Below are positions 8,136 through 46,002 of a stretch of DNA of 49,967 nt, one piece after another. The stretch is from a virus. Each line of letters begins with the position of its first letter. Position 1 is the first letter of the stretch. Location: positions 1-49,967 of IMG/VR virus record IMGVR_UViG_3300020020_000047, one strand, 5' to 3'. The translations under genes and the position numbers were made by a program. Under the pieces are notes generated by a model. The model saw only the letters and a program-made list of their open reading frames with translations, ran no database searches and was not told the origin of the DNA.

Positions 8136-8535
8136 GGGAATCGAACGGCTCAACGCAATGATCTTGAAGTTGAATAAACTTGAGGAATTCGTTGAAGAGG
8201 TAACACCGGATATAGCTGAGTCATTGGAAAAGGAAATTAAGTCAACAATCTCAGCTGGAACTTCGTTTGGCGGTGTTCCTTGGACGCCTAAAAAGGACGG
8301 AAGCAAGCCATTAGCCAACGCAGAATCAGCGTTAGACGTTCAGGCCATCGGATCTGTGGTAGTTGCAACCCTAAATGGCCCTGAAGCACGACATCACAAG
8401 GGGGCTGTAAGGGGAAATAAGGGAGGAAATACCCTAAATAGGCCCATTTTACCGACAAAAAAGAGCCTCGGTAAGGTGTCAAATGTGGTCAAAAAGGTGC
8501 TGAAAAAGCGCTTTAACGACATTATGGAAGGCTAA
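8128..8535 (+). CDS. Putative neck/tail-completion protein
   Basis: The 135-residue protein overlaps the connector gene by 8 bases; the ATG at 8128 is preferred to an upstream in-frame ATG at 8056. It begins with a helix (MAEGIERLNAMILKLNKLEEF), has a GGVPWTPKKDGSKPLANA segment and ends very basic (KKSLGKVSNVVKKVLKKRF). The WxPxKDGSKPL pattern with a later HHKGA segment and RPILPT resembles phage virion-morphogenesis/HK97 gp10-type neck proteins, which join head and tail. Identification is by pattern and position only. Confidence 0.5.
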   Translation: MAEGIERLNAMILKLNKLEEFVEEVTPDIAESLEKEIKSTISAGTSFGGVPWTPKKDGSKPLANAESALDVQAIGSVVVATLNGPEARHHKGAVRGNKGGNTLNRPILPTKKSLGKVSNVVKKVLKKRFNDIMEG

Positions 8536-25248: not shown

Positions 25249-25320
25249 GCCCACCTAGCTCAGTGGTAGAGCAGTAGTTTTGTAAACTACCGGTCACCTG
25301 TTCGAATCAGGTGGTGGGCT
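25249..25320 (+). tRNA. tRNA-Thr (anticodon TGT)
   Basis: Cloverleaf: acceptor GCCCACC/GGTGGGC, D arm GCTC...GAGC with AGTGGTA loop, anticodon stem GTAGT/ACTAC with loop TTTGTAA (anticodon TGT), variable CGGTC, T arm ACCTG-TTCGAAT-CAGGT, discriminator T. CCA is not encoded (CGA follows), so the host must add it. It would read ACA/ACG-type threonine codons and may serve the phage's codon use. Confidence 0.95.
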
Positions 25321-25358
25321 CGAGGCGGAGACCCTGGAAACAGGAAAAGAACCACACC

Positions 25359-41213: not shown

Positions 41214-41771
41214 ATGTCTAGTTGGACAGGCAAAGAGTTTTCGTGGGATTCCGTTAGCAAGAAGGGTTTGGAGGCGCTGCCCTTTGGGCTTTACGGATTC
41301 CTTGTTTCTGACGCGTCCTTGGGTGACCCCACCAAGAAGAAGCCGAATGGCGAGGGTGGTGATCCCCAGATCAGCGTTGAGCTGAAGATTACGAATAAGC
41401 ACGGTGAGGAAGTTGGCAGCCTCAACCGTAAGTGTTTCAGCAACCTGGTTTTCGTTCCTGGTGGAATGTTCCGAATCAAGCAGATTGCGGAAAGCTTGGG
41501 GGTTGCATTGCCTCCGTTTCCTTTCGAGGATGATGCACTTCAGGAGTTTGCGGAAGCCCTTGTTGCCGCGGATAGCTCCAATGCAACTGTTCTCTTGGGT
41601 CAGCGCAAGGATCCCAAGGATCCGTCCAAGGTCTACAATGACCCCAAGAATTTCTTTACACCTGATGAGCTGAAGGAGTTCCTTGAGTCTGATGCGGCTA
41701 AGGCGCTGACCGAGGCTGTCGAGGAGGATACAGGTCCGAAGCGCCGCAAGAAGGGCGAAAAGGCAGCCTGA
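41214..41771 (+). CDS. Candidate single-strand DNA-binding protein (DUF669-like)
   Basis: The 185-residue protein has an N-terminal WTGKEFSWDSVSKKGLEALP and a beta-rich middle (LYGFLVSDASLGDPTKKKPN; GDPQISVELKITNKHGEEVG), resembling DUF669-type proteins found with Sak-like recombinases. The C-terminus is strongly charged (EEDTGPKRRKKGEKAA). Its codon choice is restricted, like the capsid gene, and it has its own promoter, which indicates abundance as expected for an SSB. The function is inferred. Confidence 0.55.
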   Translation: MSSWTGKEFSWDSVSKKGLEALPFGLYGFLVSDASLGDPTKKKPNGEGGDPQISVELKITNKHGEEVGSLNRKCFSNLVFVPGGMFRIKQIAESLGVALPPFPFEDDALQEFAEALVAADSSNATVLLGQRKDPKDPSKVYNDPKNFFTPDELKEFLESDAAKALTEAVEEDTGPKRRKKGEKAA

Positions 41772-41782
41772 GGATAAGATAA

Positions 41783-41912
41783 CCAGGGGAAAGGCCGAAG
41801 GTAATGCGGAGGTACCTGGCCCCTGTAACAGCGAGCGTTGCGTTTAAAGCCAGTCAGCTGAACTGGAACAGTGTTAACCGAGCTGTGCTGTGAATCGGTT
41901 CAAGGGGCACTG
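41783..41912 (+). other. Structured noncoding region upstream of tRNA-Leu
   Basis: Within the 165-base gap before tRNA-Leu, several hairpins can form: CAGGGG (41784-41789) with CCCCTG (41820-41825); CCAGT with ACTGG around CAGCTGA (41850-41866); AACCGA (41876-41881) with TCGGTT (41895-41900), enclosed by CAGTG (41869-41873) and CACTG (41908-41912). No ORF is credible. It may be a small RNA or part of the tRNA precursor. Confidence 0.4.
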
Positions 41913-41935
41913 ACCTTGTAAATAACAGTGTCAAC

Positions 41936-42030
41936 GGGATTCTGGCGGAATTGGCAGCACGCGACGGACTTAAAATCCGTTTGGGCTTTAGCGGGCCCTA
42001 ATCCTGGTTCGAGTCCAGGGAATCCCACCA
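41936..42030 (+). tRNA. tRNA-Leu (anticodon TAA), CCA encoded
   Basis: Class II tRNA: acceptor GGGATTC/GAATCCC, anticodon stem ACGGA/TCCGT with loop CTTAAAA (anticodon TAA), a long variable arm (GGGC...GCCC), T arm CCTGG-TTCGAGT-CCAGG, discriminator A and encoded CCA. The tRNA-Thr of this genome lacks CCA, so the two were probably acquired independently. It reads TTA/TTG leucine codons. Confidence 0.95.
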
Positions 42031-42064
42031 AGGTTTGGCAGTACAGGTAACCGCTAAAAACTGC
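42031..42064 (+). other. Post-tRNA hairpin element, copy B
   Basis: AGGTTTGGCAGT, 13 bases, AAAAACTGC, directly after the tRNA-Leu CCA. GCAGT (42038-42042) pairs with ACTGC (42060-42064). It corresponds to copy A after tRNA-Thr (25359-25391); the outer stem varies (T in A, C in B) while pairing is kept. Confidence 0.5.
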
Positions 42065-42068
42065 ATGA

Positions 42069-42118
42069 GCGTGTGAGTGCAGGCCATTTAGCTGGTTCGA
42101 GCCCAGCCACACGCCCCA
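42069..42118 (+). tRNA. tRNA-like minihelix (acceptor + T arm + CCA, no D or anticodon arm)
   Basis: GCGTGTG (42069-42075) pairs perfectly with CACACGC (42108-42114). Between them, a 15-base linker (AGTGCAGGCCATTTA) leads to a T arm GCTGG-TTCGAGC-CCAGC with canonical T loop. After the acceptor come discriminator C and CCA (42116-42118). D and anticodon arms are absent. It could be a deleted tRNA gene or a functional minihelix that CCA-dependent enzymes recognise. The structure is seen; its function is unknown. Confidence 0.6.
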
Positions 42119-42273
42119 AGTATCCATCGCGGTAGCGCAGGAAACGGCTTTGATCCGTAGTAGCCAAATTACTGTGTTGGGTCGCCTGAGTAAACGCACC
42201 ATCAGAGGTTGGCTACGGCTCCACTGAGGTTTCAGGTATACCGCCCTAATTTTATCCCCTGACTGGAATTTGC

Positions 42274-42406: not shown

Positions 42407-43498
42407 ATGGTGTTTTATGCCCAAAAGCGTTCTGTATCACCTTCTGGCAACACTTCCAATGCCTCGATCGCTTTCCTTGCTGACACACCCATCCGAGCTG
42501 ACCTGGAACATGGTACCGCATTTCATCCTGCTTCTGGTAGTGTTCGGCTCCTTCATCGTGGCTTGTTGCACAACGGAATTTCCCCACAGGATTGCTATTA
42601 CACTCATGCTGTGTTGCACGGTGGGGTTGCTTACGATAAAAAAGCATTGTTGGTAGCAGCGAAAGCAAGGAAAAAGGAGCTGATTAAGGAGTTGGACGAA
42701 TGCGGCGCAAAGTGGATTGTTCCAATGGGACGCATTGCGTTGAAAATGCTCCTAAGCCTAAAAAAGAACCCGGATTTAATGAAGGGCTGGCGTGGCTCGA
42801 TTACCGCAATAGGGGCGGATCGGTATGTCTGTCCTGTTTTGCATCCCTCTTTTTGTTACTCCACCCCAAAGTGGATGCCATGGTTCGAACGTGATATTGA
42901 CCGTATTGGACGACTTGTTAAGGCTGGCACTTGGGCTCCACCTGAAGCGTCGGCAACCATCACCATCGGAACTAGTGTTGAGCGCATACGTGGGTGGTTA
43001 CGAGATAACGCACACCATGGAAGTGCAGCCAGCGACGTTGAAACAGTTGGACTTGGACCAACTAGAACGGGACTGGTGTGCTACGGTATTGGGGTACCTA
43101 AAGGAGCAATTATCATCCCTTGGAGTACATCCTCCAACGGTGCTGAACCTTACTGGAAGCCTAAGGAACGAACTGCAATCGTTGAAGCTGTAAATGGGTA
43201 TTTCGCCACCCGTTACGCAGTTTCGCACAATGGTCCAGCATTCGATCACATAGTTTTACAGCGTTATGGTTTCGTTACTACTCTGTGGCATGACACATTA
43301 TATTGCTCTCATGCCCACGCTGCGCACATGCCCAAGAATCTGGCGCATTTCGCGACCACTTGGCTGGATGTGCCACCCTGGAAACACGCCGACCACGCAT
43401 CAAGCATTGAGCAACTTTGGTTTTACAATGCCCAAGATGTGATCTATACAATCGAGGGGTTTCATGCTATGGTAGCGGAGTTGGGATTTCCAAAATGA
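42407..43498 (+). CDS. UDG-fold / 3'-5' exonuclease protein (N-terminal part of a split DNA polymerase)
   Basis: Residues about 20-170 resemble a family 4-type uracil-DNA glycosylase fold (HGTAFHPASGSVRLLHRGLL, NGISPQDCYYTHAVLHG, WIVPMGRIALKMLL and VLHPSF). The N-terminal glycosylase motif is degenerate, so activity is doubtful. Residues about 205-350 are a DnaQ-like exonuclease: ExoI SDVETVGLG (D210, E212), ExoII SHNGPAFDHIVL (N275, D280) and ExoIII WFYNAQDVIYTI (Y340, D344). In SPO1-type family A polymerases these two parts precede the polymerase domain in one chain; here the polymerase is a separate gene 1.1 kb downstream. Confidence 0.8.
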   Translation: MVFYAQKRSVSPSGNTSNASIAFLADTPIRADLEHGTAFHPASGSVRLLHRGLLHNGISPQDCYYTHAVLHGGVAYDKKALLVAAKARKKELIKELDECGAKWIVPMGRIALKMLLSLKKNPDLMKGWRGSITAIGADRYVCPVLHPSFCYSTPKWMPWFERDIDRIGRLVKAGTWAPPEASATITIGTSVERIRGWLRDNAHHGSAASDVETVGLGPTRTGLVCYGIGVPKGAIIIPWSTSSNGAEPYWKPKERTAIVEAVNGYFATRYAVSHNGPAFDHIVLQRYGFVTTLWHDTLYCSHAHAAHMPKNLAHFATTWLDVPPWKHADHASSIEQLWFYNAQDVIYTIEGFHAMVAELGFPK

Positions 43499-43680
43499 AC
43501 CAAAAAAAGATTCGTGACGGTGGATTTGGCATGAGCTATTACACGTCGAATGGAATTACCCTTGCTGAACACACATCCAATGGATTACGCATCAGGGTTG
43601 ATCGTATTCCACAAGATGAGCTGTTGGGGTTTAGTGAGTGGCTAATGCAGGTATCTGGAGGCAACAAGAATGGCAACTAA
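43495..43680 (+). CDS. Hypothetical protein
   Basis: A 61-residue ORF begins at an ATGA overlap: MNQKKIRDGGFGMSYYTSNG ... LLGFSEWLMQVSGGNKNGN. A short sheet and then a helix with Trp; it resembles 39297 and 43670 in layout. It overlaps the next gene by 11 bases. Function unknown. Confidence 0.5.
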   Translation: MNQKKIRDGGFGMSYYTSNGITLAEHTSNGLRIRVDRIPQDELLGFSEWLMQVSGGNKNGN

Positions 43681-43933
43681 GAAGGGCAGCAGGAAGCAGG
43701 ATCCGCCGGTTGAAGAGATCAGTGTCACAATGGCAACACCCATTGTCGCTACTCTTATCCTTCATGATCTTGAGGATAATGCTCCCATGTGTTTCACATT
43801 CTTTGCAGACGGAGACATCGCTATCCATGGGGAATCCGTCCGCCTACAGCCACCACAGGTGGAGCTAATGATTGCTTCCATCGCTACTGCACACGGGATT
43901 ATGGCTAGGGTGAATAAACCGGTGGTGCACTGA
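43670..43933 (+). CDS. Hypothetical protein
   Basis: The 87-residue protein has a basic start (MATKKGSRKQDPPVEEISVT), a strand pair (CFTFFADGDIAIHGESVRLQ) and a helix (VELMIASIATAHGIMARVNK). Similar in plan to its neighbours between the two polymerase pieces. Function unknown. Confidence 0.5.
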   Translation: MATKKGSRKQDPPVEEISVTMATPIVATLILHDLEDNAPMCFTFFADGDIAIHGESVRLQPPQVELMIASIATAHGIMARVNKPVVH

Positions 43934-43935
43934 AA

Positions 43936-44199
43936 ATGGCTGGGTTGCATTATGGAGAATCACACACCGACATGGTTATGCAAGGCAGTATTGGCGATAT
44001 TCCGCCAGTTATCCGTGTTCCAGGCACAACTATTACTGTGGTGGTGCACGGGCATGTTGGTCTACGGCCCGGGGTATACTGCAGTGGTGTACGGGACGAC
44101 GAGTTGTCTCATCGTCTCGTTGCTCGCTTCATGGGCGCGTACCCGGACCATGACACGGTGAGTAGGATACAGGCGTGGCTAATGGACGGTGGACTATGA
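43936..44199 (+). CDS. Hypothetical protein
   Basis: The 87-residue protein has GSIGDIPPVIRVPGTTITVV, a beta-rich centre, and a helix (LSHRLVARFMGAYPDHDTVS) ending IQAWLMDGGL. It overlaps the membrane protein gene by ATGA. Function unknown. Confidence 0.5.
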   Translation: MAGLHYGESHTDMVMQGSIGDIPPVIRVPGTTITVVVHGHVGLRPGVYCSGVRDDELSHRLVARFMGAYPDHDTVSRIQAWLMDGGL

Positions 44200-44378
44200 A
44201 TTTGATTTGGCGCATCGTTATTTCCATCCTTCTTACAGCTGTGTCTGTGTACGTTGGTACCACACTTTCAGAAAAGCAAACAGTTACACCTTTGATGTAT
44301 GCAGGTGCATCTGTACTTTATTCGATGCTGGGTGTGAGCTATATTTACACGCTGTTCGGATTGGACCAGTTACAATGA
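44196..44378 (+). CDS. Small two-TM protein
   Basis: The 60-residue protein has two membrane segments (WRIVISILLTAVSVYVGTTL; TPLMYAGASVLYSMLGVSYI) and short ends. It starts in the ATGA overlap with the preceding gene and overlaps the next ATG. It is located between the two polymerase gene parts. Function unknown. Confidence 0.55.
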   Translation: MNLIWRIVISILLTAVSVYVGTTLSEKQTVTPLMYAGASVLYSMLGVSYIYTLFGLDQLQ

Positions 44379-44644
44379 CCCCCAACGAAATCGGCCAGCT
44401 GTGCTATGAAGCCCACCAGGAGGAAACACGGAAACTGTGTGCCGGCTGGTTTCACATTCCCTGGCATGCGATGTCAGTGGCGCAACAGATTGTGTGGGAA
44501 AAGGCCGGCGGTGCAGTGTACTATCCAGCAACCAGGACTAAGGACGAAGAGCTAGAGGCAGCCGAATCCCTTGGCTACACCTATGGTTATGCTGATGGTG
44601 TAGAGGATGAAAGGGACAGGAACGAAAAAGAGGACTGCTTTTGA
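44375..44644 (+). CDS. Hypothetical protein
   Basis: The 89-residue protein has MTPNEIGQLCYEAHQEETRK, WFHIPWHAMSVAQQIVWEKA and an acidic end (LEAAESLGYTYGYADGVEDE). The GYxYGYxDG phrase is common in small phage proteins. It overlaps the polymerase start by TTGA. Function unknown. Confidence 0.5.
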   Translation: MTPNEIGQLCYEAHQEETRKLCAGWFHIPWHAMSVAQQIVWEKAGGAVYYPATRTKDEELEAAESLGYTYGYADGVEDERDRNEKEDCF

Positions 44645-46002
44645 TCCCTAATCCTCATTCAGCACTACACATCTATGAAGCCGACAAGAAGTGTGCCGCA
44701 GTATGCACATTGATGTCACAGAATGGGTTCCGGTTCGATGTAGATAGGGCAGCTGTTTACATTGACAAGCTGAAGGGGCTGGAATCGGACGCATTAACGA
44801 GGGCAGAATCAGCCATAAACCGACCTTTGAAACGCACCAAAACCGGTGGAATCAGCGTAAAGGATATGCATGGTGCGTTCTTCTTTGACCTAGGTGCACC
44901 TGTACTGAAACGTAGCGAGTTAACTGGTAAAGCTTCCATCGATGTCAACGCACTCCGAGCCTACTCTGTATGTGCAGATCCCGCGCTTCGTTATTTGGCT
45001 CTTGCAATTCTCGACAGACGCAAGGCCCAGAAGATACGTTCCACCTACATTCAAAAAATCATCCTTGACGCTGATGGGAGAGTCCATCCAACATGGCATA
45101 ATGCTGGGCCTATCACTGGGAGATTCTCCTGTTCCGGCCCCAGCTTCATGCAATTGCCCCGTGGAGCGTCCGATCCGACTTATCAGGAATCTAACGGTAA
45201 GGTTGTCGAGCCGTGGGGTGGCGTGCGTTCGTTGTATGTGCCCGATCCGGGTTACGTGATTGTTGGATTCGACAAGAGCCAATTAGAGCTGAGAGTTGCT
45301 GCGTACACAACAGGATGCCCAGCCTACATTGCAGCTATTGAATCCGGTGACGTGCACAGCCACAATGCCAAGCTGGTGTTTGGTCAGGCGTTCATTGACG
45401 AGCTGAACGAGACCAAAAGGATCAAAGCCTCTGATCCCAAATTCAAGGGAACGGTGCTGTACGTTAAGATCCGCACCCAGGCTAAAACCTTCATCTTTGC
45501 ACTTAACTACATGGCAGGTGCCGAAACAATCTATGCGCAATGCATTGCAGCTGGATTGCAAGTCAAGTTGAGGGGTATTCAAGCCGTACTGAATAAGCTG
45601 CACCGCCAATACAAACACTATTACGATTGGCAGGCTGAAAACCTGCTGAAAATCAAGGCCTGTGGATATGTCTACTCCCCCATTATGCAACGTGCACGAT
45701 GGGTTGGTTTTGATCCCCAGCCGACCGAATGTGCTAACTTTCCTATTCAAGCTGGGGCAGCGGATGTGATGAATACTGAACTACCATTGTTACACGCTGC
45801 CCAACAGAAATACTTCCCTAAGGCCAAGCTGTTGGCTCAGGTACACGATGCAGTGTATTCCGAGGTACCCAGGGCTGAAGCTGATTCTTATGTTGCGATG
45901 CTAGAAGATACATGCCAGCAGGAATTCAGCATCAGCACAAGTGGTAGCGAGTTCAAAGTCCGGTTCCCCATTGATATAGATGTAAGTGAGCGTTGGAAAT
46001 GA
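44641..46002 (+). CDS. Family A DNA polymerase, polymerase domain
   Basis: The 453-residue TTG-initiated protein has the three Pol I motifs: A IVGFDKSQLELRVAAY (D211, E216), B RTQAKTFIFALNYMAG (R278, K282, Phe286, Tyr290) and C AQVHDAVYS (D403). Motif C reads VHDA rather than VHDE; Phe at the O-helix position suggests dNTP discrimination against ddNTPs. The N-terminal part (DRAAVYIDKLKGLESDALTR; the TGRFSCSGPSFMQLPR finger/thumb region) is a full polymerase without a 5' nuclease or exonuclease domain. It pairs with the upstream UDG-exonuclease gene. Confidence 0.92.
   Translation: MIPNPHSALHIYEADKKCAAVCTLMSQNGFRFDVDRAAVYIDKLKGLESDALTRAESAINRPLKRTKTGGISVKDMHGAFFFDLGAPVLKRSELTGKASIDVNALRAYSVCADPALRYLALAILDRRKAQKIRSTYIQKIILDADGRVHPTWHNAGPITGRFSCSGPSFMQLPRGASDPTYQESNGKVVEPWGGVRSLYVPDPGYVIVGFDKSQLELRVAAYTTGCPAYIAAIESGDVHSHNAKLVFGQAFIDELNETKRIKASDPKFKGTVLYVKIRTQAKTFIFALNYMAGAETIYAQCIAAGLQVKLRGIQAVLNKLHRQYKHYYDWQAENLLKIKACGYVYSPIMQRARWVGFDPQPTECANFPIQAGAADVMNTELPLLHAAQQKYFPKAKLLAQVHDAVYSEVPRAEADSYVAMLEDTCQQEFSISTSGSEFKVRFPIDIDVSERWK

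Follow-up and report, generated by a model that had tools for sequence, protein, structure and literature searches.

Positions 42069-42118 of this viral genome have the form of a tRNA acceptor/T-arm minihelix, 50 nt long, in which a 15 nt linker stands in the place of the D and anticodon arms. The reading that we prefer, and to which we give about an even chance, is that the element is the relic of a tRNA, most likely of the His type, that has lost both of these arms and is still processed. Having no anticodon arm, the minihelix cannot decode.

Architecture and genomic setting

All of the pairs in the acceptor (7 bp) and the T stem (5 bp) are Watson-Crick, and direct reading confirms exactly the architecture given in the original prediction (7 bp acceptor, T arm, discriminator, CCA and 15-base linker; Table 1). 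The full acceptor pairing is obtained only with a linker of 15; linkers of 11 and 13 leave six of the seven pairs. In the window (the whole stretch of DNA that was analysed, 49 967 nucleotides), only the minihelix, tRNA-Thr and tRNA-Leu have a 5 bp T arm with a TTCGA loop together with a 7 bp acceptor that is Watson-Crick throughout. The element therefore has the parts of a minihelix (7 bp acceptor, 5 bp T arm with a consensus loop, and NCCA), the stacking of the two stems being predicted only. The D and anticodon arms of the tRNA family RF00005 are absent. ARAGORN does not call the element, and RF00005 gives no match at 42069-42118 even at an E value of 10 in this genome (the 29-bit threshold is not reached). 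A minus-strand match to Rfam RF04354 (Plastid-ycf2) scored 21.2 bits, below the gathering score of 65.7, and was rejected; by inspection, this model looks like a T arm and acceptor in reverse complement.

Table 1. Features of the element and its surroundings.
Feature	Position	Strand	Basis and remarks
tRNA-Thr	25249-25321		True tRNA of the window
Probable single-strand DNA-binding protein (SSB) gene	41214..41771	+	Homologue-based; upstream
tRNA-Leu(UAA)	41936..42030	+	ARAGORN; Rfam RF00005, 53.3 bits; intact, encoded CCA
Spacer, 38 nt	42031..42068	+	Direct reading; taken to be the minihelix 5' leader; A at base -1 (42068)
Minihelix, whole: GCGTGTG-AGTGCAGGCCATTTA-GCTGG-TTCGAGC-CCAGC-CACACGC-C-CCA	42069-42118	+	Direct reading
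Acceptor 5' strand, GCGTGTG	42069-42075	+	Direct reading
Linker, 15 nt, AGTGCAGGCCATTTA	42076-42090	+	Direct reading; replaces D and anticodon arms
T arm, GCTGG-TTCGAGC-CCAGC	42091-42107	+	Direct reading; 5 bp stem, TTCGAGC loop
Acceptor 3' strand, CACACGC	42108-42114	+	Direct reading
Discriminator C73 and encoded CCA	42115; 42116-42118	+	Direct reading
Uracil-DNA glycosylase-type (UDG) domain and N-terminal part of family A DNA polymerase	42407..43498	+	PF03167; phrog_17; downstream

The virus record (49 967 bases) is of the myovirus type, with terminase, portal, sheath and baseplate genes together with lytic replication genes. It belongs to an orphan phage, the best matches to its terminase and polymerase among 50 697 phage records showing approximately 24-28% identity across most of the protein length. 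The minihelix starts 38 nt 3' of tRNA-Leu(UAA), and the two share a 635 nt gap between the probable SSB gene and the UDG-DNA polymerase gene. The product of the upstream gene has no direct family match; its syntenic homologue in a related contig (L134:6328-6876; 35% identity) matches the SSB family phrog_378 (1.1e-5).

Neither a sigma-70-like promoter nor a terminator was found in this gap, and a minus-strand ORF that spans it has no family match. The resemblance of the 38 nt spacer to tRNA is not above that of shuffles. Nor do the neighbouring segments of the gap that were tried qualify as decayed tRNAs: they score no higher than shuffles or random segments of the window, and this holds for a Gln(UUG)-like segment at 42121-42160 too. 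The leader region holds a 12 nt direct repeat, AACAGTGTYAAC, at 41867-41878 and 41924-41935, the second copy lying directly 5' of tRNA-Leu. The family A DNA polymerase is divided between two ORFs within 42407-46002 (UDG and N-terminal part at 42407-43498, C-terminal part at 44641-46002), separated by small ORFs with no family match; L134 has a single ORF of 783 residues.

Chance expectation and predicted folding

In 300 Markov windows read on both strands, three perfect T arms with NCCA occurred, none of them with a 7 bp Watson-Crick acceptor at a linker of 3-33. The chance expectation of the minihelix is approximately 2e-5 per window (about two in 100 000 windows); under a looser definition that allows G-U pairs it is one in 400 shuffles. 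Compared with the 3' ends of real phage tRNAs, the T arm and 3' acceptor strand score 44, whereas the maximum of the shuffle null is 29. The simulated windows and this match bear out the tRNA derivation originally proposed, and the sequence comparisons support an element that is real and tRNA-derived rather than a product of chance.

The folding predictions are less clear-cut. With ViennaRNA the canonical minihelix has an energy of -15.7 kcal/mol, or -16.3 kcal/mol with a 4 bp helix inside the linker; the lowest structure, at -17.2 kcal/mol, keeps the acceptor and re-pairs the T arm, and thus lies 0.9-1.5 kcal/mol below the canonical form. When the 38 nt upstream leader is included, other folds outcompete the minihelix. 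Since the energy model excludes the T-loop motif, the non-canonical minimum is a caution on the minihelix and not a refutation.

Survey of T-arm and CCA sites

A survey covered 257 loci totalling 2.2 Mb, for the most part viral contigs selected by their T arm and CCA and hence a sample rather than a census. It listed at least 985 distinct T-arm+NCCA sites, of which 872 belong to ordinary tRNAs and 113 are orphans. Among the sites listed there is no other convincing armless case, which indicates that the form is rare. Only L052 and L124, of these sites, join a perfect acceptor to a short linker, and both are doubtful. The former has perfect stems and a non-tRNA linker, yet lies within a 790-residue ORF; the latter was set aside because an alternative 36 nt linker contains an anticodon-like hairpin. 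Four other candidates (L034, L101, L189 and L219) proved to be sites within full tRNAs, L016 is a complete but degenerate tRNA whose false acceptor is U-rich, and L208 is an att-type fragment. The L124 element (T arm near 8298, minus strand) pairs GCGCGGG with CCCGCGC across a linker of 24 or 36 nt, encodes its tail, carries a GGU-containing hairpin that resembles an anticodon arm and is passed over by ARAGORN.

The survey bears on the reading that only the 3' part is a tRNA fragment (T arm, 3' acceptor strand and CCA) and that the 5' complement GCGTGTG is coincidental, which we consider unlikely. Orphan 3' tRNA fragments are common: 48 of the 83 strict orphans listed have no normally placed 5' acceptor strand, about half of these 48 being att-type 3' halves in which the anticodon loop is retained. 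A linker without tRNA character would then be expected, and that of the window is the third least tRNA-like of the 48. The fragment in L208 has a false acceptor of this kind (six of seven pairs Watson-Crick, linker 22). By eye, CTGCA (42061-42065) can also pair with TGCAG to form a hairpin with TGTGA in its loop, like a His anticodon arm with an enlarged loop of 12 nt. Against coincidence, a false perfect acceptor at a linker of 8-30 occurs in none of 608 full phage tRNAs, and a perfect 7 bp Watson-Crick complement has a chance of only about 0.2% per fragment. A 7-mer and its complement do, however, stand in the minihelix geometry at 0.23% of window positions, so such a complement must occur among many windows read; because the present case was picked from many windows, coincidence keeps some probability.

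Origin of the element

The discriminator offers the best indication of a parent. Among phage tRNAs C73 is rare with CCA, and 16 of the 23 that have it are tRNA-His; tRNA-His genes with GCG...CGC-C-CCA acceptor ends are known in other phages (L020 and L090). The element shares C73-CCA and the GCG...CGC-type acceptor with these tRNAs and differs from them in having no D arm, anticodon arm or G-1. The C73-CCA tail thus points to a parent of the tRNA-His type without proving it; no parent tRNA-His of the minihelix was found.

An attP site is another conceivable source: a temperate phage may carry the 3' portion of a host tRNA, so that integration restores the host gene. Many of the survey orphans are of this kind, intact from the anticodon loop to CCA (for tRNA-His: L022, L077 and L064). 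Here such an origin is very improbable. The 3' end GGTTCGANNCCAGCCACACGC occurs in no bacterial or archaeal tRNA across approximately 85 000 species (five matches, all without tRNA genes), neither PF00589 nor PF00239 (integrase/resolvase) matches anywhere in the record, and the sequence upstream is not a tRNA 3' half. The 3'-end pattern and the integrase searches together largely refute a host-tRNA origin.

A clean internal deletion of a canonical tRNA would be expected to leave tRNA residues from both sides in the linker, and these were not seen. In a junction test against 608 phage tRNAs, which considered all junction choices and assumed ordinary variable loops, the linker scored 4.23, compared with a shuffle mean of 5.27 and a 2.5% quantile of 5.09 for true deletion junctions; 950 of 1000 shuffled linkers scored at least as high for tRNA likeness. 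Neither U8 nor Y48 is kept: both positions are A, against T at position 8 in 549 of the 608 tRNAs and C or T at position 48 in 532 of them. Taking the linker as the remainder of an anticodon stem followed by a variable loop requires an 8 nt loop, found in two of 606 tRNAs. That the linker is less tRNA-like than its shuffles speaks against a recent clean deletion in a canonical tRNA, although the test would miss an unusual parent or a rearranged junction. As a guess, a microhomology deletion in a tRNA-His, between TGTG in the acceptor and U33-GUG, would account for both C73 and the junction; the match is otherwise a 4-base coincidence and is present in four of 606 tRNAs.

The perfect pairing had been taken to argue against simple decay. 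This argument is weakened by two considerations: an internal deletion spares both stems, and acceptor and T stems that are entirely Watson-Crick are already found in 27% of full phage tRNAs. Even so, drift that erased the linker should also have broken some of the 12 pairs, and this, together with the apparent lack of recognizable tRNA residues in the linker and of a parental tRNA-His, stands against a relic. In its favour are the phage-like 3' end with C73-CCA, the nearby tRNA-Leu, the apparent absence of the element from L134 and the seemingly very rare form.

Relatives

L134 is the only clear relative found (polymerase 41% identity), and the gene order AAA - SSB - UDG-PolA is common to both genomes. 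Its SSB and polymerase genes are only 8 nt apart, with neither tRNA-Leu nor minihelix between them, so the cassette has been gained or lost since the split and is, as far as these sequences tell, lineage-specific. The minihelix was found in no relative in the collections searched, which included a search of viral contigs for the same acceptor, and the compensatory changes that had been proposed as a check are consequently absent. On the opposite side of the SSB gene L134 has a tRNA-like element (L134:6204-6295, plus strand) whose acceptor is 9 bp long and whose T arm has a single mismatch; its middle is non-canonical, the D-side hairpin being enlarged and the anticodon-side stem having a 5 nt loop. 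It scores only 14.8 bits against RF00005 and cannot be aligned with the minihelix of the window; it shows that the lineage carries putative non-standard tRNA-like pieces in this operon.

Processing and possible function

On the preferred reading, a phage gene of the tRNA-His type would have lost its D and anticodon arms, leaving a remnant in a young cassette beside tRNA-Leu(UAA). The remnant keeps features that are recognized by RNase P, CCA-handling enzymes and T-arm enzymes, and since RNase P accepts minihelices as substrates, this and other enzymes would be likely to excise a 50 nt RNA from the tRNA-Leu transcript. The product would be mainly a by-product with no selected role. Charging, which had been suggested, is unlikely. 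Bacterial His identity requires G-1 and C73, and bacterial HisRS charges minihelices that have the G-1:C73 pair (PMC9976931); in the element C73 fits His, yet A replaces the essential G-1, so the minihelix would not be charged efficiently.

A selected, free-standing minihelix RNA, excised by RNase P and ending in CCA but serving no decoding purpose, is in our judgement improbable. It could act as a decoy, sequestering host enzymes that bind tRNAs or defence nucleases that cleave them, or as an RNase P cut mark that punctuates the SSB-polymerase transcript. The perfect stems beside a linker that is not tRNA-like, the T-loop consensus kept although its D-loop partner is gone, the encoded CCA and the location between operon genes would all suit such a role, as would cleavage of minihelices by RNase P. 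The CRISPR nuclease Cas12a3 reads the acceptor, T arm and CCA tail (PMC12851939), phage T5 has annotated tRNA-like stable RNAs of unknown function, and L134 has its own non-standard element across the same SSB gene. Selection is opposed by the absence of covariation and, from the collections searched, of any relative that carries the element, by the lack of a close analogue among the matches listed for the 257 loci, by a canonical fold that is not the predicted minimum and by the failure to find a promoter or terminator of its own. Nothing in this genome favours the decoy or the protection of an RNA 3' end that had been put forward.

Comparison with known systems

The minihelices used as substrates of RNase P and aminoacyl-tRNA synthetases likewise consist of 12 bp of acceptor and T stem, a T loop and N73-CCA, but these are laboratory constructs, whereas the phage element is encoded in a genome and has a bulged linker of 15 nt. 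Prokaryotic and viral tRNA fragments and pseudogenes (PMC9897764) are similarly partial and non-decoding. Such fragments are as a rule unbroken 3' portions, many of which include the anticodon loop, while the phage element, which lies beside a true tRNA, keeps both acceptor strands and is missing the middle. The T5 stable RNAs rna1, rna2 and rna3 (AY543070) are also tRNA-like and lie amid phage tRNA genes; they are longer (73-144 nt), have other insertions and bear no visible sequence relation to the phage element.

If functional, the element would give the laboratory minihelix a counterpart in nature, and the use of stripped tRNAs against tRNA-targeting defences would become testable. If a relic, it would illustrate the decay of a phage tRNA cassette into pieces that standard tRNA finders overlook. 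The form is unusual and testable, yet without conservation.

Another locus of the survey may deserve more attention. L014:14-147 (plus strand; IMGVR_UViG_3300018494_000150) is a tRNA inside a tRNA. The anticodon loop of a tRNA-Lys(UUU) that is perfect in all other respects contains, precisely from 5' end to CCA, a reduced tRNA of 58 nt (positions 48-105) with an acceptor, D arm, T arm and encoded CCA but no anticodon arm. No T4-type RNA ligase (PF09511) was found in the records of the window, L014 or L134; in principle, RNase P, 3' processing and a ligase could free both tRNAs.
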